Shown: positions 1,495-21,523 of the stretch, piece after piece
Layout: every line of letters begins with the position of its first letter
Numbering within the stretch: the stretch's first letter is position 1
Origin: Verrucomicrobiota bacterium
GTDB taxonomy: Bacteria > Verrucomicrobiota > Verrucomicrobiia > Limisphaerales > UBA8199
Reading direction: 5' to 3'
Assembly: GCA_029974925.1 (NCBI GenBank)
Contig: JARKQH010000030.1
Coordinates: 1-32,035, forward strand
DNA: 32,035 bases
Made by a program: the position numbers and the translations under genes
The notes under the pieces: model-generated
Seen by the model: the letters and a program-made list of their open reading frames with translations, nothing else
Database searches by the model: none
Told to the model about the DNA's origin: nothing

Positions 1495-2625
1495 AAGACG
1501 AGCACTAAACCAAAACAGCCTTCAAATTCGAGGCTGCGGGAGGGCAAGCCACAGCCAATCGAGCTCACCAGTCTTGAGTTCGATCCCGACAACCCTCGAA
1601 CGGTGGAGCGATTGGGCCGGGCGGCGTCACAGGCTCGGATAGAGGAATTCCTCCTCGGCGGCGAAATGAGGGCTCAGGAGCTCGTTCCGTCGTTTATCGA
1701 AAACGGCTTCATTCCTTATGAGCCCCTAATTGTACGACGGGGGAAACCGGGCACTAACTTTGTGGTCGTGGAAGGCAACCGCCGTCTTGCGGCTTTGCGC
1801 TCCATGCGCGTTTCCAACGACCAAGAGATTAAAGCGGCTTTCGCTCGCCACGGACTTGCCCGTGTCCCATGCCTCGTTTTCGAGGGGGATGAGCGCCAAC
1901 TGCTTGCTTACCTTGGCTTGCGCCACCTTTCGAAAACGAAGGATTGGACTACGGCAGCAAAGGGCGCTTTCGTCGAGCGCGTCCTACGGGCAAGCAAAGA
2001 CAACGACCCCGCCGCCCGCTTGCGCGAGGCCGGCAGACTCACCAATACAAGTACTCCTGCGCTCCGTCTTACCCTTCTTACTCGGAGGTTATTCGAAAAG
2101 GCTCATGAGCTGGGGCTCTCCCTGCCAACCTCCGGCGCTGACAGCGAAACCATATTCTGGCATCTGGGTGACGCTATTCGACGCAGCAACACGAAAGCAT
2201 ACTTGAAGCTTACAGAGAACGCGGACCCACTCGAGTCGCCGGGCTTTGATGAGGACCGCTTCGAGAAGCTGGTCACTTGGCTGTATGGGAACCCCAAAAC
2301 GAAACAAGGACCGGTCATCAATAGCATCCGCGACATCCCGGATCTCAACAGGTGCCTTGGAGACCCCCGGGCAACCAATGCCCTTGAGAATGGTTCCAGT
2401 TTGAGCGAAGCCTTGGAAGAACTCGAGGCTGCGGGTGCCACCGTCATCGCTCACCTGCAGCGAGCAAAGAAATCAATTCAGCGAGCCGGCACCGGACTAT
2501 CCGAAGTTGACCAAAAGGGCCTCGAAGAAATCCGGGGTGCGCACAAGGAGCTAGAGAGTGCGCTGCAGCAATTTACAGGCAGCCTCGAGGTGCGGGCCAA
2601 AAGCATAAAGGCGAGCCAGGCATAA
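1495..2625 (+). CDS. ParB/Srx-fold nuclease-like protein, 5' end removed by the IS
   Basis: The only start-like codon downstream of the IS is GTG at 1603, but the frame stays open from there back to the IS boundary. The upstream part (about 1555-1602) encodes IELTSLEFDPDNPR, which is the usual N-terminal motif of ParB-like domains (I..L..dp.NPR). The true N-terminus is therefore lost to the left of the element, and GTG 1603 is an artefact or at best a salvage start. The ParB core continues with VVEGNRRLAALR (about 1762-1800; GxRRxxA box), followed by a helical region and a Lys/Glu-rich, probably coiled-coil tail. Stand-alone ParB-fold proteins act in DNA partition, as nucleases/NTPases, or in defence systems. 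The stop TAA overlaps the next gene's ATG (TAATG), implying coupled translation. The gene is probably inactive or produces a shortened protein. Confidence 0.72.
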   Translation, partial: KTSTKPKQPSNSRLREGKPQPIELTSLEFDPDNPRTVERLGRAASQARIEEFLLGGEMRAQELVPSFIENGFIPYEPLIVRRGKPGTNFVVVEGNRRLAALRSMRVSNDQEIKAAFARHGLARVPCLVFEGDERQLLAYLGLRHLSKTKDWTTAAKGAFVERVLRASKDNDPAARLREAGRLTNTSTPALRLTLLTRRLFEKAHELGLSLPTSGADSETIFWHLGDAIRRSNTKAYLKLTENADPLESPGFDEDRFEKLVTWLYGNPKTKQGPVINSIRDIPDLNRCLGDPRATNALENGSSLSEALEELEAAGATVIAHLQRAKKSIQRAGTGLSEVDQKGLEEIRGAHKELESALQQFTGSLEVRAKSIKASQA

Positions 2626-3524
2626 TGGCTACGCTGGACTTGTCATTCATTGACGAGGCGCGGGCTTTGGAAGTTGAAGCCATCGACACCGGCTGCACCA
2701 TGAGCGAGTTTACCCTCGCCCCGGGGCCGTCAAACTTCGCGACTGATGTCGGTGAAGGAGAGGAGGAAGCGCTCCACGGACGTCCGGTTGACGACGTCCT
2801 GGAGATAGGCGAGCGACTCAAGGACCTTCCGCGGTATACTGACCTCGCTAAACGAGCATTCCAACAGCGAGGGCTCAGTTATCCTTTCGAAATCGACGAC
2901 TCTCACCAAGCCCTCACTGTCAGTCCAGGGCAGTTTCAGCTCGCCATCCAGGTGGCAGGCCTCAGCCGCGTCATCCGGCAGGGGAATCCCGAAGCATCTA
3001 AATTCGAAAAGCGAGCCTTTCGTGCGCTCCACAAGCTGATCGGAGGCTGGGGCGTGTGCGTTGGCTCACCACGCGAAAACCCCGGCATGGGCGCTGAAAG
3101 GACCATCCGACATTATCGGTCGCAGTTGCTCCCTTACGAGCAAGGTGCTGCTTGGCCGAGAGACTTCAGCCGCAACGGAGACTCTGGTGCCGATGGCTTT
3201 ATTATCCTGGGTCGGGGATGGGGCGGGCCCATCGCTTTTTACCAGTCGAAGAATACAGGGTTCGATCTTGAGGCACACCCGGAAGAGTTCAGCCGCATCC
3301 CCTCAATCGCGGAGGATTGGTTCGGCAGGAGGATCAACACATGTCGCCGGATCATTCCCGTGCTAGCCCTCAACACGGTTTTAACTATTGAGCTCAAGGA
3401 GAAGATTTACACAGGGCGGGGGGAGCTCTGCGGGGTCCATATCCTCGACGCAGTTGACATCTTGGCCGCTGAGAATCTGCCAACAAACCACGGAACTTTT
3501 CGCAGCACCTGCCACGTCCTGTGA
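2625..3524 (+). CDS. Probable PD-(D/E)XK (Mrr-like) restriction endonuclease-type protein
   Basis: This 299-aa protein has no signal peptide and overlaps the ParB-like gene by 1 bp (TAATG). The middle resembles a restriction-endonuclease fold. A helix contains FEKRAFRALHKLIGGWG (about residues 126-143), as in the 'FE..v..ll...Gw.v' start of Mrr-type domains. It is followed by GADGFIIL with D190, and then FYQSKN with Q207 and K209. D-X16-Q-x-K matches the D...(E/Q)-x-K active site, with Gln replacing Glu as in Mrr relatives. The N-terminal 110 residues are acidic and unrecognised. Coupling to a ParB-like gene suggests a two-gene DNA-targeting unit, possibly phage defence. The nuclease call is inference from motifs only. 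Confidence 0.55.
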   Translation: MATLDLSFIDEARALEVEAIDTGCTMSEFTLAPGPSNFATDVGEGEEEALHGRPVDDVLEIGERLKDLPRYTDLAKRAFQQRGLSYPFEIDDSHQALTVSPGQFQLAIQVAGLSRVIRQGNPEASKFEKRAFRALHKLIGGWGVCVGSPRENPGMGAERTIRHYRSQLLPYEQGAAWPRDFSRNGDSGADGFIILGRGWGGPIAFYQSKNTGFDLEAHPEEFSRIPSIAEDWFGRRINTCRRIIPVLALNTVLTIELKEKIYTGRGELCGVHILDAVDILAAENLPTNHGTFRSTCHVL

Positions 3525-7220: not shown

Positions 7221-10200
7221 GGGGTGAGCAAACGGTAATACCGTTGAGGTTCGGCGGGATGGACCGGCAGGAGCGTTTGGAAGGAGCCGTCGGGGTTAAA
7301 AAGATTGGTAAGCATGGGCTGCCAGAAGGGCGGTGGCGCCGCCGGATTGGTCGTGGAAAGGACTTGAAACAGGCCGCCGGGAGGCCCGTGGGTTCCGTTG
7401 AGCATGAGGGAGTTGGCGACGCGGCCGACGGACGTGATGCGCGGCGGCTGCGAGGCAAAGATGCCGTTGACCGTGCGGAAGCTGAGCTGGCTTCCACTCC
7501 AGAGGGGCAGCCCGCGGGCACTCAGGGCGTTGGCAGCAGTGAGAATGGCGGTGCCCCCATTCATGGCGCCGGAATTCCAAGTGAGCCGGTAAACCGGTCC
7601 GTTGGTTGTGGCGAGCAGGGAGATCGAGGAGGGCTGGCTGGCGAGGGTGCCGCGGCCGGGGCCGGCAAGCGTGAAGTTCGCCGGATCAAAGACTCCGCCC
7701 GAAGGCAGCATGGGCTGGTTGAAGCGCACATCCAGCTCGCGGGCCGAGACGGCGGTGACGGCGGCCAGATAAGGGCTGGCTTCGGCGGCAAACGCATCAA
7801 TCGCCATGACCGAACCGGGCGTGTCCGTGGGGTCCAGCCGCCATTGGATGACCACGCCCTGGTAAGCCGCGCACTGGCCCATGTCCACCACGTAATCGCG
7901 CAGGAGCCCATCGGCGATGAGGGGGAAGAAGACCGACTTGGACTCGGTGAAGGTGGCATCGGTTTCGAGCCGGAAGAACACCTGAGCCCAATGGCCCGCG
8001 GTCTGGCTCATGCGGACACGCACCCAGCGCCGCTCGCGCGTGTTGACCCACGTGGGGGGGCTTTCGGCCCGGGGGTCCGCGCCGCTGGAGACGCCCACCA
8101 GCGCGCCGCCGCTGGCAGCGAAGCCGTCCCACTGGCTGGCGCTGCCCCACCCTTCGACGGAACTGGTGAAATCCCACTGTCGCGGCCGCGCGTTCACCAC
8201 CGCGTAGGAGGTGCCGGTGCGGGTGGCCGCCCCGCCGGTGTAGCTGATCCAGCGGGTCACGTCATTGTAGATGGCCGGGGTGCCGACGGAGTTGGGGGCG
8301 CCGCGGTAAACCCCGTTGTTGCTGAACGAGCCGCTGTTGCCGGCGCTGGCTCGCAGTTCGCTGTTTTGCCCGCTGTCCTTCGGGTTGCGGCAGTTGTTCC
8401 AGAACGTGTTGCTGTTCATGACGAAGGCCTGGTTGCCCCCGCCGGAGTTGATGAGCAGCATGCCCGAGCCGTCGTTGTCGCGCACGACGTTGTTGAGGAA
8501 CCACACGTTTTCGGTGTTGCCCTCGTAATCGAAACCGCAGCCGTCGTTGCCGCTGCCGTTCCGTTGGTTGCCGGCGAACTCACAGTTTTCGATGACCACG
8601 TTCCGGCTGTGCTGGATGAAACCGCCCGTGGTGCCGGTGGCATAAAAACCGGCGCCGCCCCGCCAGGTGTCCACGCGCCGGACGGCGCCGCCATCCACGT
8701 AAAACAACGCGAACGACCCGTTTTCGCAGCCGGTGACCCAGGAATCCTCGAAGCGGAAGTTGGTAAAGCGGCTGCGGTAAATGGCGGGATAATAGAAATT
8801 CATGCCCAGGCCGGTGCTGCAATCCTCGAATCCGCAGTGCGTGACCGAGAAGTCATCGAGAATCCGGGTGAACTCCGAGGGCCAGGGGCCGCCGGGTGGG
8901 GCCGGGACGGTCCCGCCCAGCCAGATGCCCGCCCCCCAGGAAAGCTCATAAGGCGGGGGCACGGTGATGCTGCCGTCAGGCGCACTCCACACCGCGTTCA
9001 TGTTCTGGAAGTGACACGCGGTCACCTGCACATCGCGGTTGTTGAACATGGGCCCGGTCCCGTCGGTGTTGCCGCCGCTGAACCGCAGGTAGAGGCCCAC
9101 CTTGGCATCCCTGCAGTGCAGGGATTGGATGCGGACGTGCGAAGGGTTTTCCCAAACAACGCACGCGGCGTTGGTCCGGTTCAGTCCGGTGAGGACCGGA
9201 CTGGGGCCCTCGCCATAGGCGCTGAGTGTGATGGGACTCCCCGGCGCGCCTTTGCCGGTCAGCCGCAGTTGGCCTGGGTTCCACGTGTCGCCCCGTTTGA
9301 GCAGCACGGCGGAGCCGGGCCCCAGCGTGAGGCCGTCGAGGTTTGTAAATGTCGCCCAAGGCTGGGACGGCGTGCGACCGGAATTGAAATCGCTGCCACT
9401 GCTGGAACTGAGGTAGTAAACCGGAGGGCTGGCAGCGCCCGAAGCGACCACCGTCGGGCTGGGTCCCCAGGGCGCGGCCGGAGCCAGCCGGATGTAATCC
9501 ACTTCCGCAAACTCACCGGCGGCCGCGGCAAAGAAGGGGACAAAGGCTTCCTGCGGAAAGTTGAGCGTGGCTCCCCCACCCGCCCCCCAAGGGTTCCCAT
9601 ACAGGGGCGTACCGCTCAGGTTCAGGACAAGTTCAAGCAAGCTGCCGTTCGCGGCCATGCCGCTCTGGAAACCGCCGGCAGCGTAATTGGCGGGGTTGCT
9701 GAAATAATTCCAGCCAAACAGATTCGGCTGGCTGGCGGTGACCACTCGAAAGCGGGAGACCAGGCGCGTGAAATGCCCGGAGTCTATGTTTCGGAAAGGA
9801 CGGGACATGGCGACGCTGCCGGCCGCAGTTGACTCGAGCCGCAGGAGGCCCGGGGCGCCCGGTGTCAGCACGGTGCGGCTGTTGCCCTGCCACTCGGCCC
9901 AATCGCCCGCGGTGTCGAAGCCCCAATCAAAGAGCTCGGACAGGCGGATGAAATCAATTTCGATGGCATCGCCAACCGCCGTGTTCGGGACGTAGAAACT
10001 GATGCTGAGGGGAGGGGACCCATCCCCCCAGCAGGTGGCGGCCCCGGCGTGGTCAATCCCCAAATCAAACATCAGCGTCTGGAAGGCGGTCGTCGGCGCC
10101 CAAGTGAAAGTGTTGAGAATGGCCGAACTGCGGTCGTCTCCGCCGCCCGCCACCCCGTTGGGACCGGCGCTTTGCAGCACCAGGCTGCCGGTCCGGCTGG

Positions 10201-10660
10201 CGGCGCCGTGAAACCTCAGGCGAATTTCCAGCACGCGGGAGAGGGTCCGGACAAGGCCATCGCCATAAAGCGTGAGGGACAGGTCCGTGCCGGTGGAGTT
10301 GGTCATCCGCAACGTGCCGCCGGCCACAACCAGCGCATCGCCGGCCAGCGCGCCCCAGGCCTCGGAGTCGCCGAGAGTGTTGAAGTGCCACACCTGCGAG
10401 GCGGTGACATAAAAGGCGTCGCCGGCCGCGGCACTCTGGTTGGGGATGTTGAACTGGCCATGGGCGGTTGTCGGGAAGGAACCCACCGACGCCCCATTCT
10501 TGAACAGTTCCACCGAGGCAAACGGGGGAGCCCCGCCTCCCGTGACGGTGATCACCGGTCCGGTGCCAATCGGGTCCAGAAAGAGGGTCTGCGCTGCGCC
10601 AGCCCAGGCCAGGGCCAGGCAGCATCCGCCCACCCAGAACCTGGGAAGAACACCAGTCAT
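7217..10660 (-). CDS. Exported right-handed parallel beta-helix protein (pectate lyase-like)
   Basis: I place the start at ATG 10660, where the product begins with a signal peptide (MTGVLPRFWVGGCCLALAWAGAAQ-type, cleavage near residue 24), giving 1147 aa. The frame is open 52 codons further upstream, but that stretch contains the operator-like palindrome at 10724-10745 and looks non-coding. Two jelly-roll modules precede the helix: WHFNTLGDSEAWG and WGFDTAGDWAEW. The beta-helix spans about residues 415-800 and opens with YYLSSSSGSDFNSGRTPSQPW, a common opening in PL9-like and other polysaccharide-acting beta-helices. A third jelly-roll (WDFTSSVEGWG), an Ig-like domain and a tail ending YYRLLTP follow. 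No catalytic residue can be assigned. It is probably secreted and glycan-directed, and it is translationally coupled to the glycosidase downstream. Confidence 0.72.
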   Translation of the reverse strand: MTGVLPRFWVGGCCLALAWAGAAQTLFLDPIGTGPVITVTGGGAPPFASVELFKNGASVGSFPTTAHGQFNIPNQSAAAGDAFYVTASQVWHFNTLGDSEAWGALAGDALVVAGGTLRMTNSTGTDLSLTLYGDGLVRTLSRVLEIRLRFHGAASRTGSLVLQSAGPNGVAGGGDDRSSAILNTFTWAPTTAFQTLMFDLGIDHAGAATCWGDGSPPLSISFYVPNTAVGDAIEIDFIRLSELFDWGFDTAGDWAEWQGNSRTVLTPGAPGLLRLESTAAGSVAMSRPFRNIDSGHFTRLVSRFRVVTASQPNLFGWNYFSNPANYAAGGFQSGMAANGSLLELVLNLSGTPLYGNPWGAGGGATLNFPQEAFVPFFAAAAGEFAEVDYIRLAPAAPWGPSPTVVASGAASPPVYYLSSSSGSDFNSGRTPSQPWATFTNLDGLTLGPGSAVLLKRGDTWNPGQLRLTGKGAPGSPITLSAYGEGPSPVLTGLNRTNAACVVWENPSHVRIQSLHCRDAKVGLYLRFSGGNTDGTGPMFNNRDVQVTACHFQNMNAVWSAPDGSITVPPPYELSWGAGIWLGGTVPAPPGGPWPSEFTRILDDFSVTHCGFEDCSTGLGMNFYYPAIYRSRFTNFRFEDSWVTGCENGSFALFYVDGGAVRRVDTWRGGAGFYATGTTGGFIQHSRNVVIENCEFAGNQRNGSGNDGCGFDYEGNTENVWFLNNVVRDNDGSGMLLINSGGGNQAFVMNSNTFWNNCRNPKDSGQNSELRASAGNSGSFSNNGVYRGAPNSVGTPAIYNDVTRWISYTGGAATRTGTSYAVVNARPRQWDFTSSVEGWGSASQWDGFAASGGALVGVSSGADPRAESPPTWVNTRERRWVRVRMSQTAGHWAQVFFRLETDATFTESKSVFFPLIADGLLRDYVVDMGQCAAYQGVVIQWRLDPTDTPGSVMAIDAFAAEASPYLAAVTAVSARELDVRFNQPMLPSGGVFDPANFTLAGPGRGTLASQPSSISLLATTNGPVYRLTWNSGAMNGGTAILTAANALSARGLPLWSGSQLSFRTVNGIFASQPPRITSVGRVANSLMLNGTHGPPGGLFQVLSTTNPAAPPPFWQPMLTNLFNPDGSFQTLLPVHPAEPQRYYRLLTP

Positions 10661-11930: not shown

Positions 11931-14222
11931 CTAACGCTTCGGAGGCGCGAGCGCCTCGCCGGCCGCCCCCGGATGTGGGCGCGGCGTCCGGGCGGCGCGT
12001 TCCGAGTCGAGCGTGGCCAACAGGCCTGTGTACACCTGCCGGGTCGTTTCAATTCGACGGCGAATCTGGACCGCTTGCTCCGCGGGCCAGCGGTTCCAGT
12101 AATCAAGCGGCTGCCGCGCCGTGGACATGACGCGCACCGCCTCGGCGACGGCAGTCTCGATCTCATCCAGCACCGCGAGTTGTTTCTGAATCAGCATGGC
12201 AGCCTGGGTCACGTCCCAAAAGCGAAAACCGTCGCGGAGCACATAAACCGGGGTGGAATGCGCCTCCGACCCATCCTGCCCCGTGGCGTGAGCCGCCAGC
12301 CAGCAGCCGAACCCGCCGTCCACTTTCGCCTCGAGGCGCAGCTCGGTTTCCTCGGCGGACGAGGCTTCAACCTCACGCAGGACCCGGCCAAATTGCACCA
12401 GGCGCAACTTCGCCGGAGCGGAAGCGCCGGGCCGGCCCCAGGCCCGGGCCTTGACCCGCACCGGCCGGCCCGGCTTGAGCCGGACCTCGTCCCCGGGGAG
12501 GGCATTGTCCACGGTGAATTCCAGCATCGGGCCGGTGGTGACAAACGTGTGGCCGCGCCGGAGCGCCTCGAACCAGCGGTCCGGCGTGAATTCGCGGCGG
12601 CCGCACCAGGCATAGAGCCTCACACAGCCCACCGTGCCCCCGTAGGGGGTGTCACTGCCGGCGCTGGCCGTCATTTTGAACCCGAGATTGAGGAAATCGT
12701 AAAAGAGGTCCAGTCCCAGTTTGGTCTGCAGGATGCTGTTGAAATCCACGATGTTCATGGGCGTGAACAGCGCCATCTGGCGCTCCGTGAAGAGGGTTTT
12801 GACTTCACTGTTGCCAACGTGGGTGTGGCCGTACAGGCCGCCCTGGCGGTGAATTTCCTCCGCGATCCAGTCGTTGAGGTAGTAGCGGTCCAGATCGCGC
12901 ACCTTGGCACGCAGGTTCAAACCGATGGCATGACCGAGTTGCGAGCGCGGGTCCTCCTGGCCGGGCACCAGCCAGTGGAGGCCGTCCCGCACGCGGAACT
13001 CGGGGCCGAAACCCCGCTGGGCATACCAGGTGCGCATCTCGTTGCCCATTTCCAGCACGTTGGACACATGGATATCCGCCGCGCGGGTAAAGGCCATCAA
13101 CCGGTCCGCATCTTCGCTGCTCATCAAGCGCGAATGCACGTGGTCATCGCCCGAATACCAGCCCCGGCGCGGCATGTGCACCCATCGCCGCAACCGAACC
13201 GTCTTGCGCGTCCAGCCTCCCGGTTCGATCCGGAGGCGCTCCCGCACCGGCTCGTACTCCAACCCGTGGAGAACATGAATTTCGTACTCGCCGGCGGGCA
13301 GGGGCATCTCAAAAGCCTTGGGCACCACCCAATAGCGCCCTTGAAAAGGCCCGGGAATATAAACCATGTAGCCGCGGCCGGGTCCATAAATGGGCAGGCC
13401 CGTGACGGCATTCATCATTTCACGCAGGTCGCACGCGCCGGCAGGCTCGATCAAGCGCTGGCTGGCGCGCGCCGTGAGGCGCAGCAGCACGGGCGTCGGC
13501 CGTCCGTTCTCATCCAGGACCGCCAAAGCCAGTTGACCGGAGGGGCGGAAGACAAACTTGAGGGCGTGCCGATACCCCGGGCTGCCCGCTCGGTCGCTTT
13601 GAAAGACAAGGTGAGTCACCGCCTGATCCGTGCGCGTGTGCTCCAAGCGGAGCAATACATACGTTGTGCCGCGGGCACCAATGGGAATCGTGCAGGCCTG
13701 CGGGTCCCGTTCGCCGGTCAGGTCCATGTCGTGCACCACGAACCGGACCGCCCCGTCTCCCGTGACGACTTTTAAGAGCACGAGATTGAACTGCTGATCC
13801 ACCTCGACCGGCGAGTCGGGGTTATGCGCCGGCCGGCCCGGCTGAAAGTCGAGGGCCACAACGTCGGGCAACTGCTCGATGAGACGCAGCAGGTGGGCGT
13901 CGGCGCGCCAGCGGTAATACTCGGCGTCTTTCGGGTCGAGCCCCTGCGCCTGGCCCGCTCGAATTTGCTCTGCCAGCCGCAGGCTGCCGCCGAGCTCGTC
14001 CAGCGTCCGCATTTGTTCAGCGTCCAACTTGTTCCGATAGGTTTCCAGCAACACACGGGCAAAATGCTCCGCGCCCGGCAACGGGGGTTGCACGCGGGCC
14101 AGGTCCGCGGCCGTGGGCTTGGGGACATCCACGCCGTGGGCGAACAGCAGCACGGCCGTTCCTGGCAGGGCCAGCCAGCACACCGCCAGCCACGTCAACC
14201 GGACTGAGGAATTGCCTTTCAT
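11931..14222 (-). CDS. Exported CehA/McbA-family (PHP-like) metallohydrolase
   Basis: ATG 14222 (MKGNSSVRLTWLAVCW) is preferred over TTG 14231. It gives a 763-aa protein with a signal peptide and mature start near AHGVD. The N-terminal half contains beta-rich modules (NPDSPVE, PAGEYEIHVLHGLEYEP). The PHP-like metal-binding domain follows: D360-H361-x-H363 in SGDDHVH, H466 and H468 in YGHTHVG, and D524 in SAGSDTPY. This set is consistent with a di- or tri-metal hydrolase. CehA itself is known as a carbaryl (carbamate ester) hydrolase; the natural substrate here is unknown. FVTTGPML near the domain's end is shared with the other three paralogues in the window. Its closest relative here is the 29519-31858 product, along the whole length. 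Confidence 0.8.
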   Translation of the reverse strand: MKGNSSVRLTWLAVCWLALPGTAVLLFAHGVDVPKPTAADLARVQPPLPGAEHFARVLLETYRNKLDAEQMRTLDELGGSLRLAEQIRAGQAQGLDPKDAEYYRWRADAHLLRLIEQLPDVVALDFQPGRPAHNPDSPVEVDQQFNLVLLKVVTGDGAVRFVVHDMDLTGERDPQACTIPIGARGTTYVLLRLEHTRTDQAVTHLVFQSDRAGSPGYRHALKFVFRPSGQLALAVLDENGRPTPVLLRLTARASQRLIEPAGACDLREMMNAVTGLPIYGPGRGYMVYIPGPFQGRYWVVPKAFEMPLPAGEYEIHVLHGLEYEPVRERLRIEPGGWTRKTVRLRRWVHMPRRGWYSGDDHVHSRLMSSEDADRLMAFTRAADIHVSNVLEMGNEMRTWYAQRGFGPEFRVRDGLHWLVPGQEDPRSQLGHAIGLNLRAKVRDLDRYYLNDWIAEEIHRQGGLYGHTHVGNSEVKTLFTERQMALFTPMNIVDFNSILQTKLGLDLFYDFLNLGFKMTASAGSDTPYGGTVGCVRLYAWCGRREFTPDRWFEALRRGHTFVTTGPMLEFTVDNALPGDEVRLKPGRPVRVKARAWGRPGASAPAKLRLVQFGRVLREVEASSAEETELRLEAKVDGGFGCWLAAHATGQDGSEAHSTPVYVLRDGFRFWDVTQAAMLIQKQLAVLDEIETAVAEAVRVMSTARQPLDYWNRWPAEQAVQIRRRIETTRQVYTGLLATLDSERAARTPRPHPGAAGEALAPPKR

Positions 14223-14255
14223 GGGGGTCAAAAGCGGATGGGCGAACGCCGGGCT

Positions 14256-17200
14256 CTATGGGGCATTGGCCCTGGCGGCCCGGTCCAGCCAGAATTGTTC
14301 AGTCTCGCGATAAACTTGAAGCACTTCCCGTTGCTGTTGCGGGTCCGGCAGGGCGATTTGCGCGATGCGTTGGCGCGTCCAGTCCAGAAAAAAGGCCGCG
14401 GCGGCCGGGCTCGAGCGGTTTGGCCGGTCCTTCACTTCCACGTAGAACGGTCCCGTCGAGGCAAAGCGAAAGGTTTGGGGGACGTCCGCGATGGCGCGCA
14501 CCAAAAACCAGCCACTCTCCGCCAGCCGCAGCCGCCCCAAGTCTTGCACCGCCGCGTCGGAACGAAACGGCACCCGGCGCGCAACCACGCCGTTGTGAAT
14601 GATCTCGAGGTGGCTCACCGGGTCGCGGGAACTGAGCCGCGCCTCGAGGTCAACCTCCAACCCGCCATGCTCGCCCCGGAAGACTTCGCCCGGCAGGCGT
14701 CCATTGGCGCGGCAGCGAAGCAACGGGCCGTTCGAAACGAACACCCGCCCGGCGCGCAGGCCGTCCCACCATTTTTCCCAGGTCAGCCCGCCGTCCACTT
14801 GAACATACACGCGGTTGTAACCCAGGGGGTTGGGCAGCACGCCGCTGGCGCTGCCGGCGCTGGGCGGCAGCCGGAAACCGGCATTCAAAATGTGGTGGTA
14901 AATTTCCTGCGACCAATGGCCGTTGCCGTGAGGCGGCGGGTATTTTGCGCGGTCGCGCGGCTTGCCCCAGGCTTCATTGTCGAGCATGCCCTCACGCTGC
15001 TGGTGGTTGTTGGCCAGGCCGACGGAGTCTCCCACACCCGCCGCCAGCCACGCCGGCACGTCCCACCAGAACGGCTTCTCAATGTCAATCCAGGCCCCCG
15101 CCTGCCGCCGAATCTGCCGGGCATAAACCAGCGAATGCGGGTAATGCCGGGTCGCGCCGGTGATGTCGAAGGGCCGCGGCAGGTTGAAATAGAGCAGGGC
15201 GCCGCCGTCGCGCTCATCCTCTCCCGCCAGGAGGTGGACAAACCGTTGGTCCGCGAACCGCCGCAGGGGCTGCTCGGGCAACGGTCCGCCGGCCCACACG
15301 TTTTGCTGGTTCCACCACGTCGTGAATTGCGCGAGGTGCAGGTCCTCGGCCGCCAGCAAAAGTTCCGCCTCGGCCGGGTCGCGATGCACATGCAAATCGC
15401 CACTCCACCACCCCTCCGCCGCCAGATGAGCAATGCGAGGCAGGATATTGGTCAGCAACAATCCGGAACCCGCCCGGACACTGAAGTCGCCCGTCGCCGC
15501 CCGGTATTCCGGGCCGCGCTCGATTTCAAAGCGGTAGTCGCCGGGCGCCAGCTCCAGCTCCACGCGACCGGCGCAAACGAAATGGTCGTGCCAGAACGGC
15601 AATCCGGGGGCCTTGACGGGCTGGCCGGCGGCATCCTTGAGGTGAACGCGGGCCGCCAGAGGCTGGGCGCTGCCTTGCTCCTGAATCGTGATGCCCACCC
15701 GTCCGGTCCGCGGTTCCCCGGCCCGCCTCCAGGATTGCTGGTCCGCCCGATAGCGCCGCAGCAACTCGTCCGGGTTGTTGGGCAGCAGATAAATTTTCCC
15801 CCGCCAGGTAAAGGAACCGCCGGGCGGGATTTCCGGACTGAAGCCGGTGCCGGTGTGGAGGCAGGGGTTGCCGCAGTTGCTCATCAACGCCGCCGGTTCG
15901 ACGCTCCAGGTGTATCCGACCAGCCACTTGCCGTTGCGGCTCACCGCGCCCATCAGGTTCTCGGTATGATGCTGGTCAATCCGCCACCAGGTGGGACTGA
16001 TGCGCGGCAGGTCGGTGGTTTGCGCCGCCTCTTTGCGCAAGGAAAGGAACCAGGGCTGGCGCCCCACTTGAGCCGCCGTCGGAGTCGCTTTGTCGAACGA
16101 AGTCCATTCTCCGTCAAGCACGGCGTAAATCATGCCGGGGTCCCACCGGGCGTTGAGCTCGGGACAGTCGTTCAGCGCGAGGCAGCAATTGGCCTCCACG
16201 CGCGCGAGGGGCCGCGGGCGGCGGTTCTCGACGGTGAACTCCAGGAGCACTTCGTCTCCCAGCGGCGTGGCAGCCCCCATCAGGCGCAAGCCGTCCGGGG
16301 TGACAAAATCATAGTGCAGGCGGCCGGTTTGCGGATGCTGCTGCCATTGGGGAAACGGGTCCCACTCCGCCAGCGGGGTGACCGCGCTGGAATAGTGGTC
16401 CAGGAAATGGAAGCCGGCGGAGGAGCGGAGGACCTCGGGGAAGCGCAGCTCGATGGGGCCGGTCATCCACGGCGCCTGCACCCGGAACGCCAGCCGGCTC
16501 AAGTCCTGCCCCTCGCGCATGCCCGCCTGGCGGGGAATGGCTTTTTCCACCGTCACCGGCCGGAGCACGACACCCGCGGATGGCGAAGGCTGCGGGGCGG
16601 GGGGCCGGCCTTCCGGTCTGGCAGGCCGTTGTCCGTGGGCCGCCAGCAATCGCCGGTAGGCTTCGATGCCGCTGCGGACATGGCTCACGGCTTCCTCGCG
16701 CTGGGCATCGGTGGCAAAGACCCCGTGCTGCGCCAGGTCCTCGGCATGGCGGGTCATGCGGCGGATCCATTCCTCGGCGGCGGCGGGGGTGAAGCGCGGC
16801 TGTCCGTCCACGTGCACATAAATGGCGCTGGTGTGGGCGGCGTGGGGATTGGTCTCCGGCCCGCTGAGCGGAGCGAACTGCTCGTTTTGAGAGCAGCGCG
16901 CCACGATCCAGCGCGGTTCGCCGGCCGCCAGTTCAAAGTCCAGTTCCGCCTCGGAGTTGGGGGTCCGCTTCTCCGCCAGCACCCGGCCGTTCGACACGAT
17001 CTGCAGCGTGCCGATCGGAAATCGCGAGACGGCGCGCGCCCGGATGCGCAGCGGCGTGGCGGGTTGCTCCTCGAGCACGTCGCCCACGTCGTGGCCGTTG
17101 ACGTCGAGAAACAGGAGCGGGCCGCTGGTGGTGAACGTGCGGTTCGAGCGGATGCCGTCAATCCAGCGGCCGTAGGTGAAGGGCATTTCGGTCTTGACAT

Positions 17201-18857
17201 ACACCCGCGCCGACCCGGCGACGCGGGCGGGATGGTCGCTGCCGTTGCTCAAGGGAAGCTGAAAGCCGCAGTCCAGAAAGCGGTAGTAGTCCTCGGCCTC
17301 AATCTGGTCCAGGGAATCGGTGAGGTCCTGAGACACGTTGACGGGCACGTCATTGTTCCGGCCCAGGCCATGGGCTTCGATGCTGATGCCGCCCTGGGCG
17401 CGGGCCTCGAGGATGGCGGGCCGGTTCGGGGGATAATCCAGGAACGGCGGCCCGCCCATCGAGCCGGTGGAGATGGGTTGAATCAGGCGCTGGATGTTCA
17501 GGAAGATGAGGTGGCCGTAAAACTCCTCGTTGCGGTATTCCTCGGCCATTTGAATGTGCCAGTTGGCGGAGCAGCGGCCGGGAACCGGTCCCATCGGAAA
17601 CTGGGTCGGGGCAATGAAATTCGCGTCCCGGGTGTGGTGTCGCAGGGTGAGATTGTTGGCGACGCGCAAGTCTTCGGCGCGCTGCACCACCGCCAGCAGG
17701 TCTATGTCCTCATCCACATCCCACGAGTTTTTCGCCCAATGAATGTGCGTGTCGCCGCTGATCCACCCGCGCGCCTGCATGTCCAGGAACCGGCGGGAGG
17801 CCAGCGCAAGGTCGTGGGTCTGCCCGGCGGCAAGCACCAGATTGGTCGAAACCAGCGGATGTTCAAAGCCGCGCTCGAGCGTGATTCGGGTCTCGCCGGG
17901 GGGCAGCAGCAGATCAAACCGCCCGTCGCTGTAAAAGAAGGGCAGGGTGTGGCTGGCACCCCGGCCGGCAAAGACAAAGTTCAGAAGCGGCTTGGTTGAG
18001 AGCGTGTCATTGGCCCCGAGACGCGTGTCCCGCCGCAGCAGGCCGTCCGCGGCGCGGACATAAACGCGGCCGGGGAACAGTTCCTCCGTGCTGCCCTCCA
18101 GCAGGCGTCCGCGTAAACGCGCCGGCTCGCGGATACGCGCCGGCACGCTGACCTCCAGGGCGGGAACGCCGGGCGTTTCGGCCACCAGACGCAGCGTCAC
18201 CGTCTCCGCCCGGGAATCCTCCGGTTTGACCCGCGCCCACAACACCCGCTGTGCGCCCGGGCCGAGGTGCACCGGGGCCTGCGCCGGAGCCGCCGAGCCG
18301 GCGAACCGGGCGGCGAGCTGAACGGCGGCGGTCGAGCGGTTGGCAAGCTCGATCAGAACGAGGGTTTCCAGGCCGCGGGTCAGCCGCAGCGGCGACGGCG
18401 GGGTCGCCAGACTCGCGGAGCCCGTTTCCAAAGCCACCGCCACCACCGGATGCAGCTCCCGCAGTTCGGCGTAATGCCGCTCGCAGTCGGTCAGCAGCCT
18501 CTGCCGCGTCTCGGGTGGCGGATCCGCTTCGAGCCGCAGCCAGTCCCGGTAGGTGTTCCAGGCCACCCGAATCGTGTCGGCCTGCCGTTCAGTCGGCGCC
18601 AGATAAACCAGGTCCAGAAACAGGTCCACCCAGTCTCGCGCCGCCGACCGCGAGGCGAAGGCGGGCGTCGGCGAGGCCGGGGGAACAAATTCGCTTTGAT
18701 GACCCCGCGCGACCGCCAGCGCCACCAGTCCCAGCCCGAACACACCGAATCGGAGGGCGGCTTTGCAAACGCTCCAGCGGCCCCGTCCCGGCCGCGCCCG
18801 CGGGAAGGCCGCCTCCCCGCGCGGGGCGGACGCCGGTGTGACGATTGGCGGCTTCAT
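14256..18857 (-). CDS. Exported protein with two tandem CehA/McbA-like metallohydrolase domains
   Basis: This 1533-aa protein starts with a basic, Pro/Arg-rich leader and a hydrophobic segment (about residues 33-50; signal peptide or anchor). The first PHP-like domain has D369-T-H371-x-H373 (SGDTHIH), H496 in EAHGLGRNN and D541 in NGSDHPAR, so its ligands look intact. A middle domain of about 350 residues (about 740-1090; FLDHYSSAVTPLAEWDPFPQW, ANCCLALNDCPEL) is unlike the paralogues and I do not recognise it. The second PHP-like domain has H1156 and H1158 (SGDLHVH) and ANNHQQREG. At the position of the late Asp it reads AGSASG, so that ligand is missing. The gene follows the 853-aa paralogue by 6 bp, with an AGGAG-like ribosome site. 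Fusion of an apparently complete and an altered domain suggests division of labour, with one catalytic and one binding. Confidence 0.74.
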   Translation of the reverse strand: MKPPIVTPASAPRGEAAFPRARPGRGRWSVCKAALRFGVFGLGLVALAVARGHQSEFVPPASPTPAFASRSAARDWVDLFLDLVYLAPTERQADTIRVAWNTYRDWLRLEADPPPETRQRLLTDCERHYAELRELHPVVAVALETGSASLATPPSPLRLTRGLETLVLIELANRSTAAVQLAARFAGSAAPAQAPVHLGPGAQRVLWARVKPEDSRAETVTLRLVAETPGVPALEVSVPARIREPARLRGRLLEGSTEELFPGRVYVRAADGLLRRDTRLGANDTLSTKPLLNFVFAGRGASHTLPFFYSDGRFDLLLPPGETRITLERGFEHPLVSTNLVLAAGQTHDLALASRRFLDMQARGWISGDTHIHWAKNSWDVDEDIDLLAVVQRAEDLRVANNLTLRHHTRDANFIAPTQFPMGPVPGRCSANWHIQMAEEYRNEEFYGHLIFLNIQRLIQPISTGSMGGPPFLDYPPNRPAILEARAQGGISIEAHGLGRNNDVPVNVSQDLTDSLDQIEAEDYYRFLDCGFQLPLSNGSDHPARVAGSARVYVKTEMPFTYGRWIDGIRSNRTFTTSGPLLFLDVNGHDVGDVLEEQPATPLRIRARAVSRFPIGTLQIVSNGRVLAEKRTPNSEAELDFELAAGEPRWIVARCSQNEQFAPLSGPETNPHAAHTSAIYVHVDGQPRFTPAAAEEWIRRMTRHAEDLAQHGVFATDAQREEAVSHVRSGIEAYRRLLAAHGQRPARPEGRPPAPQPSPSAGVVLRPVTVEKAIPRQAGMREGQDLSRLAFRVQAPWMTGPIELRFPEVLRSSAGFHFLDHYSSAVTPLAEWDPFPQWQQHPQTGRLHYDFVTPDGLRLMGAATPLGDEVLLEFTVENRRPRPLARVEANCCLALNDCPELNARWDPGMIYAVLDGEWTSFDKATPTAAQVGRQPWFLSLRKEAAQTTDLPRISPTWWRIDQHHTENLMGAVSRNGKWLVGYTWSVEPAALMSNCGNPCLHTGTGFSPEIPPGGSFTWRGKIYLLPNNPDELLRRYRADQQSWRRAGEPRTGRVGITIQEQGSAQPLAARVHLKDAAGQPVKAPGLPFWHDHFVCAGRVELELAPGDYRFEIERGPEYRAATGDFSVRAGSGLLLTNILPRIAHLAAEGWWSGDLHVHRDPAEAELLLAAEDLHLAQFTTWWNQQNVWAGGPLPEQPLRRFADQRFVHLLAGEDERDGGALLYFNLPRPFDITGATRHYPHSLVYARQIRRQAGAWIDIEKPFWWDVPAWLAAGVGDSVGLANNHQQREGMLDNEAWGKPRDRAKYPPPHGNGHWSQEIYHHILNAGFRLPPSAGSASGVLPNPLGYNRVYVQVDGGLTWEKWWDGLRAGRVFVSNGPLLRCRANGRLPGEVFRGEHGGLEVDLEARLSSRDPVSHLEIIHNGVVARRVPFRSDAAVQDLGRLRLAESGWFLVRAIADVPQTFRFASTGPFYVEVKDRPNRSSPAAAAFFLDWTRQRIAQIALPDPQQQREVLQVYRETEQFWLDRAARANAP

Positions 18858-18863
18858 ACCGGT

Positions 18864-21425
18864 TTATGGCTCCTTCGCGCCGCGTCGCCAGCCCGTCGCG
18901 TCAATCCGCGCCAGTTCCCCATCGAGGTCGGTTCCTTCGTAGAACGAGAGCCAGCCGCGGGCCCGCACCGTCTGGCCCGGGGGACAATCGGCCAGCCGGG
19001 CGTTGGAATGCATGCAAGGCACCGGAGGATTCTGCCATACCCCGTCCACCGGGTCCCAGGCCGTAATGATCCAGCGGCGGCCATCCTCGGACCGGCAGGC
19101 GGCATACGGCGCGCGAAGCACCTTGTTCTGGCCGGTCTGAGCGTGGAACCCCCTGGCCGCTTTGAGCATGACGCAGTTCTGCAGGCGCAGCCCGGTGAGG
19201 GGGCTGCCGCTGCCGTTGCGCAGCCAGCTTTCCAGACGCACCGCATCCCGTTCCGGAACAACTTTTGTCCCGAAGACGATGCCGTTGGGCAGGGCGCGCT
19301 CAAAATCCAGCGAGCCGTCCGGATGGCGGTTCCATTCCAAGGGATCGAGCGTGGTGCCTTCGCGCGTCCAAATCGTTTCCACGTGCTCGTGGGCCAGATA
19401 CGTCAGGCCGAGGCTCGACCAGAGGGCCTCCGGCACGTCCACGACCACGTAGCTGCGGTCGTCCCAGGGCGTGAAAACGCTGAACTTGGTGTCGCGCTGC
19501 GGATGGAGGGCGCCATCGAGAAAGCCGCTGCGGGGATGGCGGCCGCCGGGGTAGGGCAGCACGCGCAGAGGCCCGCCGCCAGCCAGGGCGGGCCGGTTGG
19601 AGGCCTGGACCTCGTGGCGTTGCTGGGCGGCCCGGATTTCCTCGATTGTCAAGCCGGTGGCGGCGCGAACCTCCTCGAGCGAAAAGCCGTGATGCCAGAT
19701 CATGTTCTCGAGCCAATACCGCAACTCGCGATCATTTTTCGGCGGACGGGCATCCCGCGCCACGTCGGCGGAATCGTCCCGCGGCGCCAGTTGCTCGTAG
19801 GCGGCGAGCGCGGTTCGATTTTCAGCCTGGGCCTCGGGCGGCAGCACATTCTGACTCCGCTCGATTTCAAGCCGCATCCGGCTCACCAAAAACTCCTTTT
19901 CCTCCCGCCGCAGTTGCCGGGGTTTGCCCGGGATTTCAATATGCCACGGCGCGGTGTGGGCCCACCGAAAGCGGCCGTGGGGGCGGTCCTCCCAGCACCG
20001 GACGGCCACCCACCCGCTCCGGTCGGCCAAAACCGTGGTGTCAAAAACCGATTCCCGGGCGCCTTCGGGTGTCTCGCGGTTTTGCGGCATGAGGGTCCGC
20101 ACCGGAACGCCGTCCTGCACCACCTCGATGAAGGACAGGGGCGCTTCGCTCACCACCACGCCGGTCACGTGGTATGAGGCGGGAGTGGCGGCCGGCCGGA
20201 AGGTTTCCCCGGGAAGGGAGTCATTGACCTTGGCAAACAGCATCGGGCCGGTGGTGACGAAACTGCGGCCGTCGGCCAGGCCTTTGAGCCAGGCGTCATA
20301 ATCAAATCCCCCCGCCAGGTGAACATAAACCCGGCTGAAGCCGGCCGGCACCGGATGAACTCCGCTGGCGGTCCCGGCCGTCGGCACGCACCGAAAACCC
20401 GCGTTCAGCAACGTGTAGTACATGCCCCAGGTGTAAAGCGTCCAATCCCGCTCATTCCCGCTTTGGCTGCCGTACGGTGGATGGAGGTACGGCGGGGCGA
20501 AGGAGACATAGTTGGTGAAGGCATACTCGGTCCGCCACATGTGATTATTGGCCAGCTCGTAAAGCTGCGCGCCGGTGACCGGCGGCAGCAGCAGGGCGAA
20601 CGCCCAGTCCAGCTTGTCCATGTCCAGCAGCGCGCCTTCCGCTTTCCCCCGGGACGCCACGGGTCCCCAGGGCGGCACCCCCTCCGTGAACACCGAGCGG
20701 TGGTTCAACAGGAACAAGGCGCCCAGGGTGTGCTGGCGCTCGCCAACGTTGAAAATCTCATATTCCGTGTTGCGCGGCCAAATCACGTGAGTCGAGTCCA
20801 CCCGGACGAGTTCCGCCGGAAAGGCGCCCGCCATGTTCCGGTCGCCGGCCGCCGGCGGCGCGAACGCCCGGGTCACCCAAAAGGAAAGCGGAAACGCCAC
20901 GTTAAGGTCTTCCGCCAACAGGACGGTTTTCAACTCCTCAACGGTGCGGTGCAAGTGCGTTTCGCCCGAGAACCACCCGCGCTCCGCCAGATTGATCCAG
21001 CGGCGCAGGGGCAGGCGGAGCTGGACCGGCTGGTCCCCCACCTCGAGGCGATGCTCGAGGGGAAAGTATTCCTTGCCGCGCTCGGCGGTGAAGGTGTAAC
21101 GGCCTGGAGGCAGGCGAAGGCGGAACCCCTCCGCCGTGAGGGTGGTGTGAACCTCGATGGAGCGCGGGTTGATCCAGTTGGTTTTGGCATAGAAGACCGC
21201 CGAACCTTTCGGCCCGGCCGATCCGGCCTGGAACCCTTCGCCTTGAGTGTTTTCCACATAGAGCCGCGCGGCCAGGGGCTGGCCCGTTTTCTCATCCACC
21301 ACGACTCCGGTCACCTCCGCGGCCGGCGCGTTGGCGGCCAGCAGCGGCCACAGACACAGCGCAATCCGCGCCGCCGATCGTCGGGTTGTCGCCAGAGCCG
21401 GCTGCCGCGGGTCCTGGATTTTCAT
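18864..21425 (-). CDS. Exported CehA/McbA-like metallohydrolase, variant metal site
   Basis: I start at ATG 21425 (MKIQDPRQ), giving 853 aa and a signal peptide ending near ANAPAAEV. The open frame further upstream includes a hairpin and is not coding. An N-terminal carboxypeptidase-regulatory-like domain (VTGVVVDEKTGQPLAARLYVE) is followed by the PHP-like domain. H157 and H159 in SGETHLH are present. The second histidine block is replaced by YELANNHMWRTE, and the late Asp block by TAGTASGVHP, so the usual Asp ligand is absent. The same two substitutions occur in the second domain of the adjacent double-domain protein. SFVTTGPMLF closes the domain. The C-terminal 300 residues (EVRAATGLTIEEIRAAQQR and a beta-rich part) are unassigned. 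It is the first gene of the metallohydrolase unit. Confidence 0.74.
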   Translation of the reverse strand: MKIQDPRQPALATTRRSAARIALCLWPLLAANAPAAEVTGVVVDEKTGQPLAARLYVENTQGEGFQAGSAGPKGSAVFYAKTNWINPRSIEVHTTLTAEGFRLRLPPGRYTFTAERGKEYFPLEHRLEVGDQPVQLRLPLRRWINLAERGWFSGETHLHRTVEELKTVLLAEDLNVAFPLSFWVTRAFAPPAAGDRNMAGAFPAELVRVDSTHVIWPRNTEYEIFNVGERQHTLGALFLLNHRSVFTEGVPPWGPVASRGKAEGALLDMDKLDWAFALLLPPVTGAQLYELANNHMWRTEYAFTNYVSFAPPYLHPPYGSQSGNERDWTLYTWGMYYTLLNAGFRCVPTAGTASGVHPVPAGFSRVYVHLAGGFDYDAWLKGLADGRSFVTTGPMLFAKVNDSLPGETFRPAATPASYHVTGVVVSEAPLSFIEVVQDGVPVRTLMPQNRETPEGARESVFDTTVLADRSGWVAVRCWEDRPHGRFRWAHTAPWHIEIPGKPRQLRREEKEFLVSRMRLEIERSQNVLPPEAQAENRTALAAYEQLAPRDDSADVARDARPPKNDRELRYWLENMIWHHGFSLEEVRAATGLTIEEIRAAQQRHEVQASNRPALAGGGPLRVLPYPGGRHPRSGFLDGALHPQRDTKFSVFTPWDDRSYVVVDVPEALWSSLGLTYLAHEHVETIWTREGTTLDPLEWNRHPDGSLDFERALPNGIVFGTKVVPERDAVRLESWLRNGSGSPLTGLRLQNCVMLKAARGFHAQTGQNKVLRAPYAACRSEDGRRWIITAWDPVDGVWQNPPVPCMHSNARLADCPPGQTVRARGWLSFYEGTDLDGELARIDATGWRRGAKEP
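18870..18875 (-). promoter_or_regulatory. Ribosome-binding site of the double-domain gene
   Basis: AAGGAG on the - strand lies 12 nt before ATG 18857, immediately upstream of the preceding gene's TAA stop (18864-18866), within that gene's 3' end. It supports the chosen start and tight coupling of the two metallohydrolase genes. Confidence 0.45.
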
Positions 21426-21456
21426 GGGTTGATTATGAGGGCTTCGCGCGAGCAGT

Positions 21457-21478
21457 GAAAGACCGGGCTGGAGCCCGG
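21457..21478 (-). terminator. Intrinsic-terminator-like hairpin after the LamG-type gene
   Basis: In the - strand transcript, CCGGGC (21478-21473) and GCCCGG (21468-21463) form a 6-bp stem around a TCCA tetraloop, followed directly by TCTTTC. It lies about 45 bp past the stop of the 21524-23881 gene and 38 bp before the next start, so it probably separates two transcription units. The U-tract is short, so efficiency is uncertain. Confidence 0.5.
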
Positions 21479-21523
21479 CCTTCACCGTTTCCAAGCGTGT
21501 GCGGCACTTCCCTGGTCCGAGGA

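Follow-up and report, generated by a model that had tools for sequence, protein, structure and literature searches.

A verrucomicrobial genome assembly carries, at the edge of one contig, a ParB-type gene without a start and, coupled to it, a gene for a 299-aa protein with features of a nuclease. What does this pair do, and are the two genes a complete system? The preliminary description of this DNA had put them forward as a candidate two-gene DNA-targeting system, interrupted by an insertion element (IS). The window (the whole stretch analysed, 32,035 nucleotides) corresponds to the entire contig C179; the genome, G000, is fragmented into 487 contigs. The start of C179 falls inside the locus, and the ParB start codon is not on this contig. 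The features discussed below are as follows.

1-1494, + strand: IS1380-family insertion element with 16-bp perfect terminal repeats; transposase at 48-1445
1495-2625, + strand: ParB-type gene without a start, its frame running from the IS edge
1771-1785, + strand: EGNRR motif (ParB Box II), invariant in 66 relatives
2625-3524, + strand: gene of the 299-aa PD-(D/E)XK-like nuclease (the partner), its ATG on the last base of the ParB stop
3006-3008, + strand: E128 codon, predicted active-site helix glutamate, kept in 68/72 partners
3192-3194, + strand: D190 codon, predicted metal ligand, invariant (72/72)
3243-3251, + strand: codons of Q207-S-K209; Q207 kept in 66/72 partners, K209 within the window's own clade

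A locus split between two contigs

The two ORFs overlap by 1 bp as previously described (ParB stop 2623-2625, nuclease ATG 2625), and the lower GC content attributed to the pair is borne out (ParB 0.574, partner 0.580, against 0.66 in the remainder of the window). The adjacent IS is also real. Its 16-bp terminal inverted repeats (1-16/1479-1494) are perfect and its transposase belongs to the IS1380 family (NCBIfam, 7.9e-67). A related copy with 73% identity lies near the end of another contig (G000:C104:12822-14312). The insertion point is codon 3 of the ParB-type gene, with an apparent 3-bp target duplication, TAA. From the stop at 1480 the ParB frame exhibits no ATG, GTG or TTG until GTG 1603, the first standard start codon available to it. 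Upstream of this codon lies the NTP-pocket box DPDNPR (1582-1599), and the N-terminus with its DxxNPR box is lost because no standard start precedes GTG 1603: D33, N36, P37 and R38 are absent if translation begins there.

The sole other 100% match to the IS in the genome is the final 141 bp of contig C20. The overlap of C20 and C179 is exactly 141 bp long and terminal on both contigs, as a k=141 assembly graph would produce. The IS flanks read ...ATGGCTA on the C20 side and AAGACG... on the C179 side; after subtraction of the apparent TAA duplication they yield an in-frame ATG for ParB, and the IS therefore sits in the third ParB codon. We infer this join from the assembly graph, which is not read-level proof. 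Upstream on C20, adjoining the ParB start, is an intact 734-aa DNA methyltransferase (DUF1156 plus N6_N4_Mtase, 9.1e-08). Its best matches are HmaB, DUF1156_MTase and others, and PD-Lambda-5_B is not among the best 25 of its 45 matches. C20 also encodes a 309-aa protein resembling, by eye, a PD-(D/E)XK restriction endonuclease (REase; DFII...VIEAK). This REase-like gene (L006:8837-9870), between the methyltransferase and ParB, shifts frame near a C run (~9690); the frame change is either real or an assembly error. Both genes lie beyond the IS and outside the window, which corrects the preliminary description.

The GC contents of all four genes (0.57-0.60, against 0.66-0.68 outside) are consistent with a single acquired cassette divided by the IS. 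L019 (Verrucomicrobia, ParB 76%), the closest relative, lacks the IS and is arranged as methyltransferase–ParB–partner; a REase-like fragment downstream of its partner (10043-10246) is 84% identical over 68 aa to the C20 gene. With the ParB start taken by the IS, the REase-like gene frameshifted and the methyltransferase ORF intact, this metagenome-assembled genome is probably restriction-minus and modification-plus.

Elsewhere in the window, four large related secreted-looking proteins are encoded in tandem and nearby (11931-21527 and 29519-31858). They share similar metal-binding-like motifs (GDTHIH, GDDHVHS), and look like a lineage expansion unrelated to the ParB–nuclease finding.

The ParB-type protein and its partner

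Neither window protein reached any Pfam or NCBIfam family. The ParB-type protein matches PHROG 3694 across almost its whole length (8.7e-39), and its N-terminal part is matched by PADLOC PDC-M38A and PD-Lambda-5_A. The GNRRLAAL box noted earlier is present; EGNRRL shows no variation among 66 relatives, and was also the motif used in the search for genome and viral loci. The DxxNPR box is likewise invariant (66/66), and the invariant residues comprise D33, N36-P37-R38 and E96-R100. Pfam ParB_N is matched by 16 of the 66 relatives and GmrSD_N by 6. The structural model (pLDDT 92) matches KorB, Noc and ParB over the nucleotide-binding and helix-turn-helix (HTH) domains (Z 9-11), the KorB match reaching Z 11.2 over 204 residues; the Foldseek value is 3.2e-05. 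As modelled, the protein is of the NTP-binding plus HTH fold, and nucleotide binding is predicted. Box I (NPR), Box II (G-N/E-RR) and the N-domain/HTH architecture of ParB-type proteins are all present.

A direct query with the 299-aa partner sequence found no match beyond its own genome in Pfam, NCBIfam, PHROGs, PADLOC, phages, plasmids and 387 phylum genomes. A single partner sequence had no match among viral contigs, and eight partner nucleases scanned against PADLOC matched no model; the family is detectable by profiles only, not by direct sequence search. Its best weak profile match is MspJI (E 0.12). The AF2 model of the partner (pLDDT 80) matches the restriction endonucleases FokI, Nt.BspD6I, MspJI, R.BspD6I2, AspBHI and BsmI (Z 6-7; 6.2-6.9 for FokI, BspD6I, MspJI and AspBHI), as the proposed comparison with PD-(D/E)XK folds had anticipated, and the top structural rows are almost all nucleases. 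All these matches have Z < 8 and none has a Foldseek E under 0.001. Z values of 6-7 by themselves fall short of proving a nuclease fold, for which we rely on the structural matches plus residue conservation.

The active-site signature put forward earlier (a helix FE, D190, Q207 and K209) is retained for the most part. D190 is found in 72/72 partners, F127 and E128 in 68/72 each, and Q207 in 66/72. K209 does not hold as a family feature, being K in 15/72 only. The window's own clade keeps QSK, QAK or QVK, and the canonical active-site lysine is absent across most of the family. E128, D190 and Q207 are among the partner's most conserved residues, which predicts catalysis. Thus the partner is very probably a nuclease of the PD-(D/E)XK type, D190 and Q207 lying in the predicted active site. 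The name "Mrr-like" given to it is no more than an approximate label, the closest solved relatives being the nuclease domains of MspJI/AspBHI and FokI/BspD6I/BsmI, at modest Z.

ParB-led scans covered 84,980 species genomes and IMG/VR. They yielded 160 loci, the best 80 matches of each collection, every one carrying the search motif EGNRRL, and in nearly all of these the gene next after ParB matches the partner profile. Clustering of the ParB sequences at 70% identity, phage and plasmid records included, left 107 clusters. In 103 of them the partner profile identifies a partner directly downstream of ParB, at a median spacing of -4 bp (at most 20 bp in 100 of the 102 measured). The other four are L055, with ParB at a contig end; L013, which is of the PD-λ-5 type; L025, whose divergent partner was found with a larger profile; and L087, in which the partner is truly absent. 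Conversely, all four matches of the partner profile among 387 phylum genomes (4/4, the window included) lie beside a ParB match. Within the set linked to C5 methyltransferases, the ParB distance matrix correlates with that of the partner (r=0.89). The neighbourhood search suggested for the pair thus confirms a pairing far beyond chance. Neither outcome that was to count against the preliminary description, an unrelated fold or homologues located apart, was observed.

Two arrangements met in these scans are of separate interest. On a phage contig (L017:245-8648), two oppositely oriented ParB–partner pairs are accompanied by a C5 methyltransferase and a Z1-domain gene. At L187:192-2422, a ParB relative directly follows a gene that is DndB-like by eye, has no partner, and adjoins a helicase-like gene.

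Linked modification genes

Methyltransferases were called by iterated profiles from seven seeds and by motif patterns. Of the 107 clusters, 83 have a DNA methyltransferase no more than 500 bp away; among the 77 with both flanks complete, 69 (~90%) have one within 2.5 kb. Farther out the count drops to 6 clusters (3-5 kb) and 2 clusters (5-8 kb). The linked enzyme is of C5, D12 or N4/N6 type, and stands upstream, downstream or convergent. Because a modification gene is found in ~90% of the fully flanked loci, we reject the stand-alone two-gene system: the cassette nearly always includes a DNA-modification gene. No modification gene was found near L016 and L026.

Mapped on the ParB tree, the methyltransferase class requires 5-6 changes, versus ~28 when shuffled. 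ParB distances correlate with those of the C5 methyltransferases (r=0.29), a value not reached in 999 permutations. A segment-wise Mantel comparison gives 0.32-0.33 for the central ParB domain and 0.19 for the NTP domain, a hint that the central domain tracks the methyltransferase best.

In five loci of Bacteroidota (L038, L040, L042, L053 and L090), dndC-, dndD- and dndE-like genes stand directly upstream, where the contig allows, and replace the methyltransferase. L090 was identified by Pfam (DndE 4.7e-19, PAPS_reduct 1.4e-09) and the other four were assigned by likeness to it. Four dnd-linked loci are present in the ParB tree and form a clade with 100% support. The DndE of L090 is fused to a HerA-like ATPase, and that of L040 is of equal length. 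In L023 and L025 the order is C5 methyltransferase–ParB–partner–Vsr, the last being a Vsr mismatch endonuclease. Vsr is usual beside C5 restriction-modification (R-M) systems.

The module is also found in E. coli and its phages. The P2-like phage WΦ carries it as gp98-gp96-mth, annotated "hypothetical". The WΦ module is matched in 139 of 5,426 complete E. coli genomes (~2%), 103 of which hold at least 80% of it. Between the WΦ type (L009:228-3266) and the type of the O145/12474III prophage (L191:1902-4938), the methyltransferases are 98% identical, the ParBs only 32% and the partners only 25%. Judged by these sequences, the two loci represent a natural swap of the restriction half. With nearly the same methyltransferase beside such divergent pairs, it is not evident that ParB sequence corresponds strictly to methylation site: either one site is recognised by both divergent pairs, or the site is not set by the pair itself.

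The restriction half has also been hit by insertions elsewhere. E. coli JXZ9A32M has IS5 inside the partner gene, the methyltransferase being spared, and a prophage (L115:7065-9206) has a transposase-like ORF inside the nuclease gene, with C5 methyltransferase and ParB intact. Together with the window this makes three independent IS-type insertions in the restriction half with an intact methyltransferase, which fit the asymmetry expected of R-M. The earlier suggestion that the IS inactivated a costly function agrees with these two further cases, as with the intact methyltransferase on C20.

A putative R-M cassette among known systems

We consider it likely that the pair is the restriction half of an R-M cassette, ParB and nuclease jointly cutting unmodified DNA. 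As in type II-like R-M, there is a linked modification enzyme and an endonuclease fold with conserved predicted catalytic residues. The methyltransferase (or dndCDE), as its linkage suggests, would mark the target sites of the host. The ParB-type protein, to go by its fold, would bind unmodified sites via its HTH domain. On the model of ParB and GmrS, a nucleotide, whether CTP, ATP or another, might serve as its switch. The ParB-type protein would recruit or license the partner nuclease, whose fold and residues suggest that it would cut unmodified incoming DNA. Here the modification enzyme would be the N4/N6-type methyltransferase on C20, forming one unit with ParB and nuclease.

The partner resembles FokI, Nt.BspD6I, MspJI, AspBHI and BsmI in its nuclease-domain fold (Z 6.1-6.9) and in the E…D…Q layout of the active site. 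It differs from type II/IIS and MspJI-family enzymes in that Pfam detects no sequence similarity, in that the canonical lysine position is missing from most partners, and in that DNA recognition is proposed to occur via a separate ParB-type protein.

GmrSD, BrxU and SspE likewise couple a ParB/Srx-fold (ParB-superfamily) NTPase to a nuclease. GmrD is an HNH/His-Me nuclease and GmrSD-type systems are modification-dependent (PMC12373910), whereas the window nuclease is PD-(D/E)XK-like and linked to a cognate modification gene. The DUF262 and DUF1524/HNH families of Pfam are reached by neither window protein, and the motif is EGNRR, not DGQQR. We regard it as unlikely that the pair is type IV-like and attacks wrongly modified foreign DNA in the manner of GmrSD and MspJI, the methyltransferase having another role. 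The ParB fold shared with GmrS, the GmrSD_N matches, the weak profile match to MspJI (a modification-dependent enzyme) and the near-identical methyltransferases beside divergent pairs would suit such an activity. However, a cognate methyltransferase stands in ~90% of the fully flanked loci, its class is co-inherited with ParB, and it is replaced by dndCDE in one clade; moreover, a methylation-dependent nuclease beside its own methyltransferase would cut the host.

The nearest tested system to the window cassette is PD-λ-5, found by functional selection and described as a compacted RM+Abi system (Vassallo et al. 2022, PMC9519451). The two share homology in the ParB N-terminal domain (2.1e-12 for the window ParB, 3.4e-24 for WΦ gp98), and in both a DNA methyltransferase is directly linked to the ParB-domain gene. 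PADLOC PD-Lambda-5_A models are mostly 430-610 aa long, with a C-terminus other than that of the window ParB. In the PD-λ-5 loci inspected, the methyltransferase (B) is a D12 enzyme and a separate nuclease gene was not seen. In window-type cassettes the modification enzyme varies, being D12 in some relatives of the ParB–nuclease pair, and the operon encodes a separate PD-(D/E)XK partner. L188 and L013 match several PD-Lambda-5_A models over nearly their full length. In L188, from the same phylum, the ParB-domain protein is followed by a D12 methyltransferase (PD-Lambda-5_B, 8.2e-108), an order identical in L189, and no separate nuclease gene occurs within the stretch of L188 examined. The window ParB aligns to PD-Lambda-5_A only N-terminally (about residues 21-170, at most to 199). 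As it is without the PD-Lambda-5_A C-terminus, the window pair is not a member of PD-λ-5. Fusion of the partner into the PD-λ-5_A C-terminus was considered and rejected, the partner profile not matching the L013 ParB protein. An abortive-infection variant of PD-λ-5, whose methyltransferase would be a guard or antitoxin-like component and whose pair would destroy host DNA once modification fails, is improbable: the limited N-terminal alignment and the PD-λ-5 loci examined, with no separate nuclease gene, argue against it, while the published RM+Abi description and the occurrence in the phylum of a true PD-λ-5 locus (L188) with the same ParB domain and a D12 methyltransferase argue for it.

ParB, Noc and KorB have the same N-terminal NTP-binding domain followed by an HTH DNA-binding domain, and differ from the window-type ParB in that the latter is linked to a nuclease and a modification enzyme. 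A role in partition was set aside as unlikely in view of this linkage and of the inspected neighbourhoods, in which no ParA was recognised by eye. The two R-M systems on a ParB plasmid in PMC3346939, with ordinary partition and ordinary type II REases, are not the same system. The PADLOC candidate PDC-M38A matches the window ParB (1.4e-19) and L023 (4.2e-32) with its N-terminal half; its profile is 715 aa long, and it is among the PADLOC models that none of the eight partners matches.

The 2025 survey of the ParB-CTPase fold includes ParB–methyltransferase and ParB–HNH fusions and binding of ATP, CTP or GTP (PMC12704722), and the reappraisal of Dnd reports diverse nucleases beside Dnd genes (PMC10853773); in neither article was a description of the ParB–nuclease pair found. 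That ParB is a DndB-like repressor of the methyltransferase operon and the partner a non-catalytic, nuclease-like fold recalls DndB, a ParB-superfamily protein reported in the latter article to repress dnd genes, and the lysine missing in most partners, but is very improbable given the conservation of E128, D190 and Q207. No published description or wet-lab test of the cassette was found in open-access PMC full texts; as supposed beforehand, it is not a named defence system, and a DNA-targeting defence system is plausible.

The R-M cassette that we favour is of a kind widespread and apparently undescribed. Tentatively, it may even form a distinct R-M class, in which a nucleotide-gated ParB-type clamp would load at unmodified sites and deliver a PD-(D/E)XK nuclease, this one restriction unit having become coupled, over evolution, to several unrelated modifications: C5-cytosine, D12-type adenine and other N4/N6-type methylation and backbone phosphorothioation. 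The cassette is directly testable in laboratory E. coli, where the 98%-identical methyltransferases with divergent ParB–nuclease halves make the question of specificity answerable. If the R-M reading is true, proteins currently annotated as "ParB N-terminal domain-containing protein" and "hypothetical protein" would constitute a defence family, and a ParB-type NTP switch would be added to the known ways of licensing restriction. It would also join PD-λ-5 and GmrSD in one theme, a ParB sensor with an exchangeable effector, and would suggest a restriction unit for some Dnd loci.
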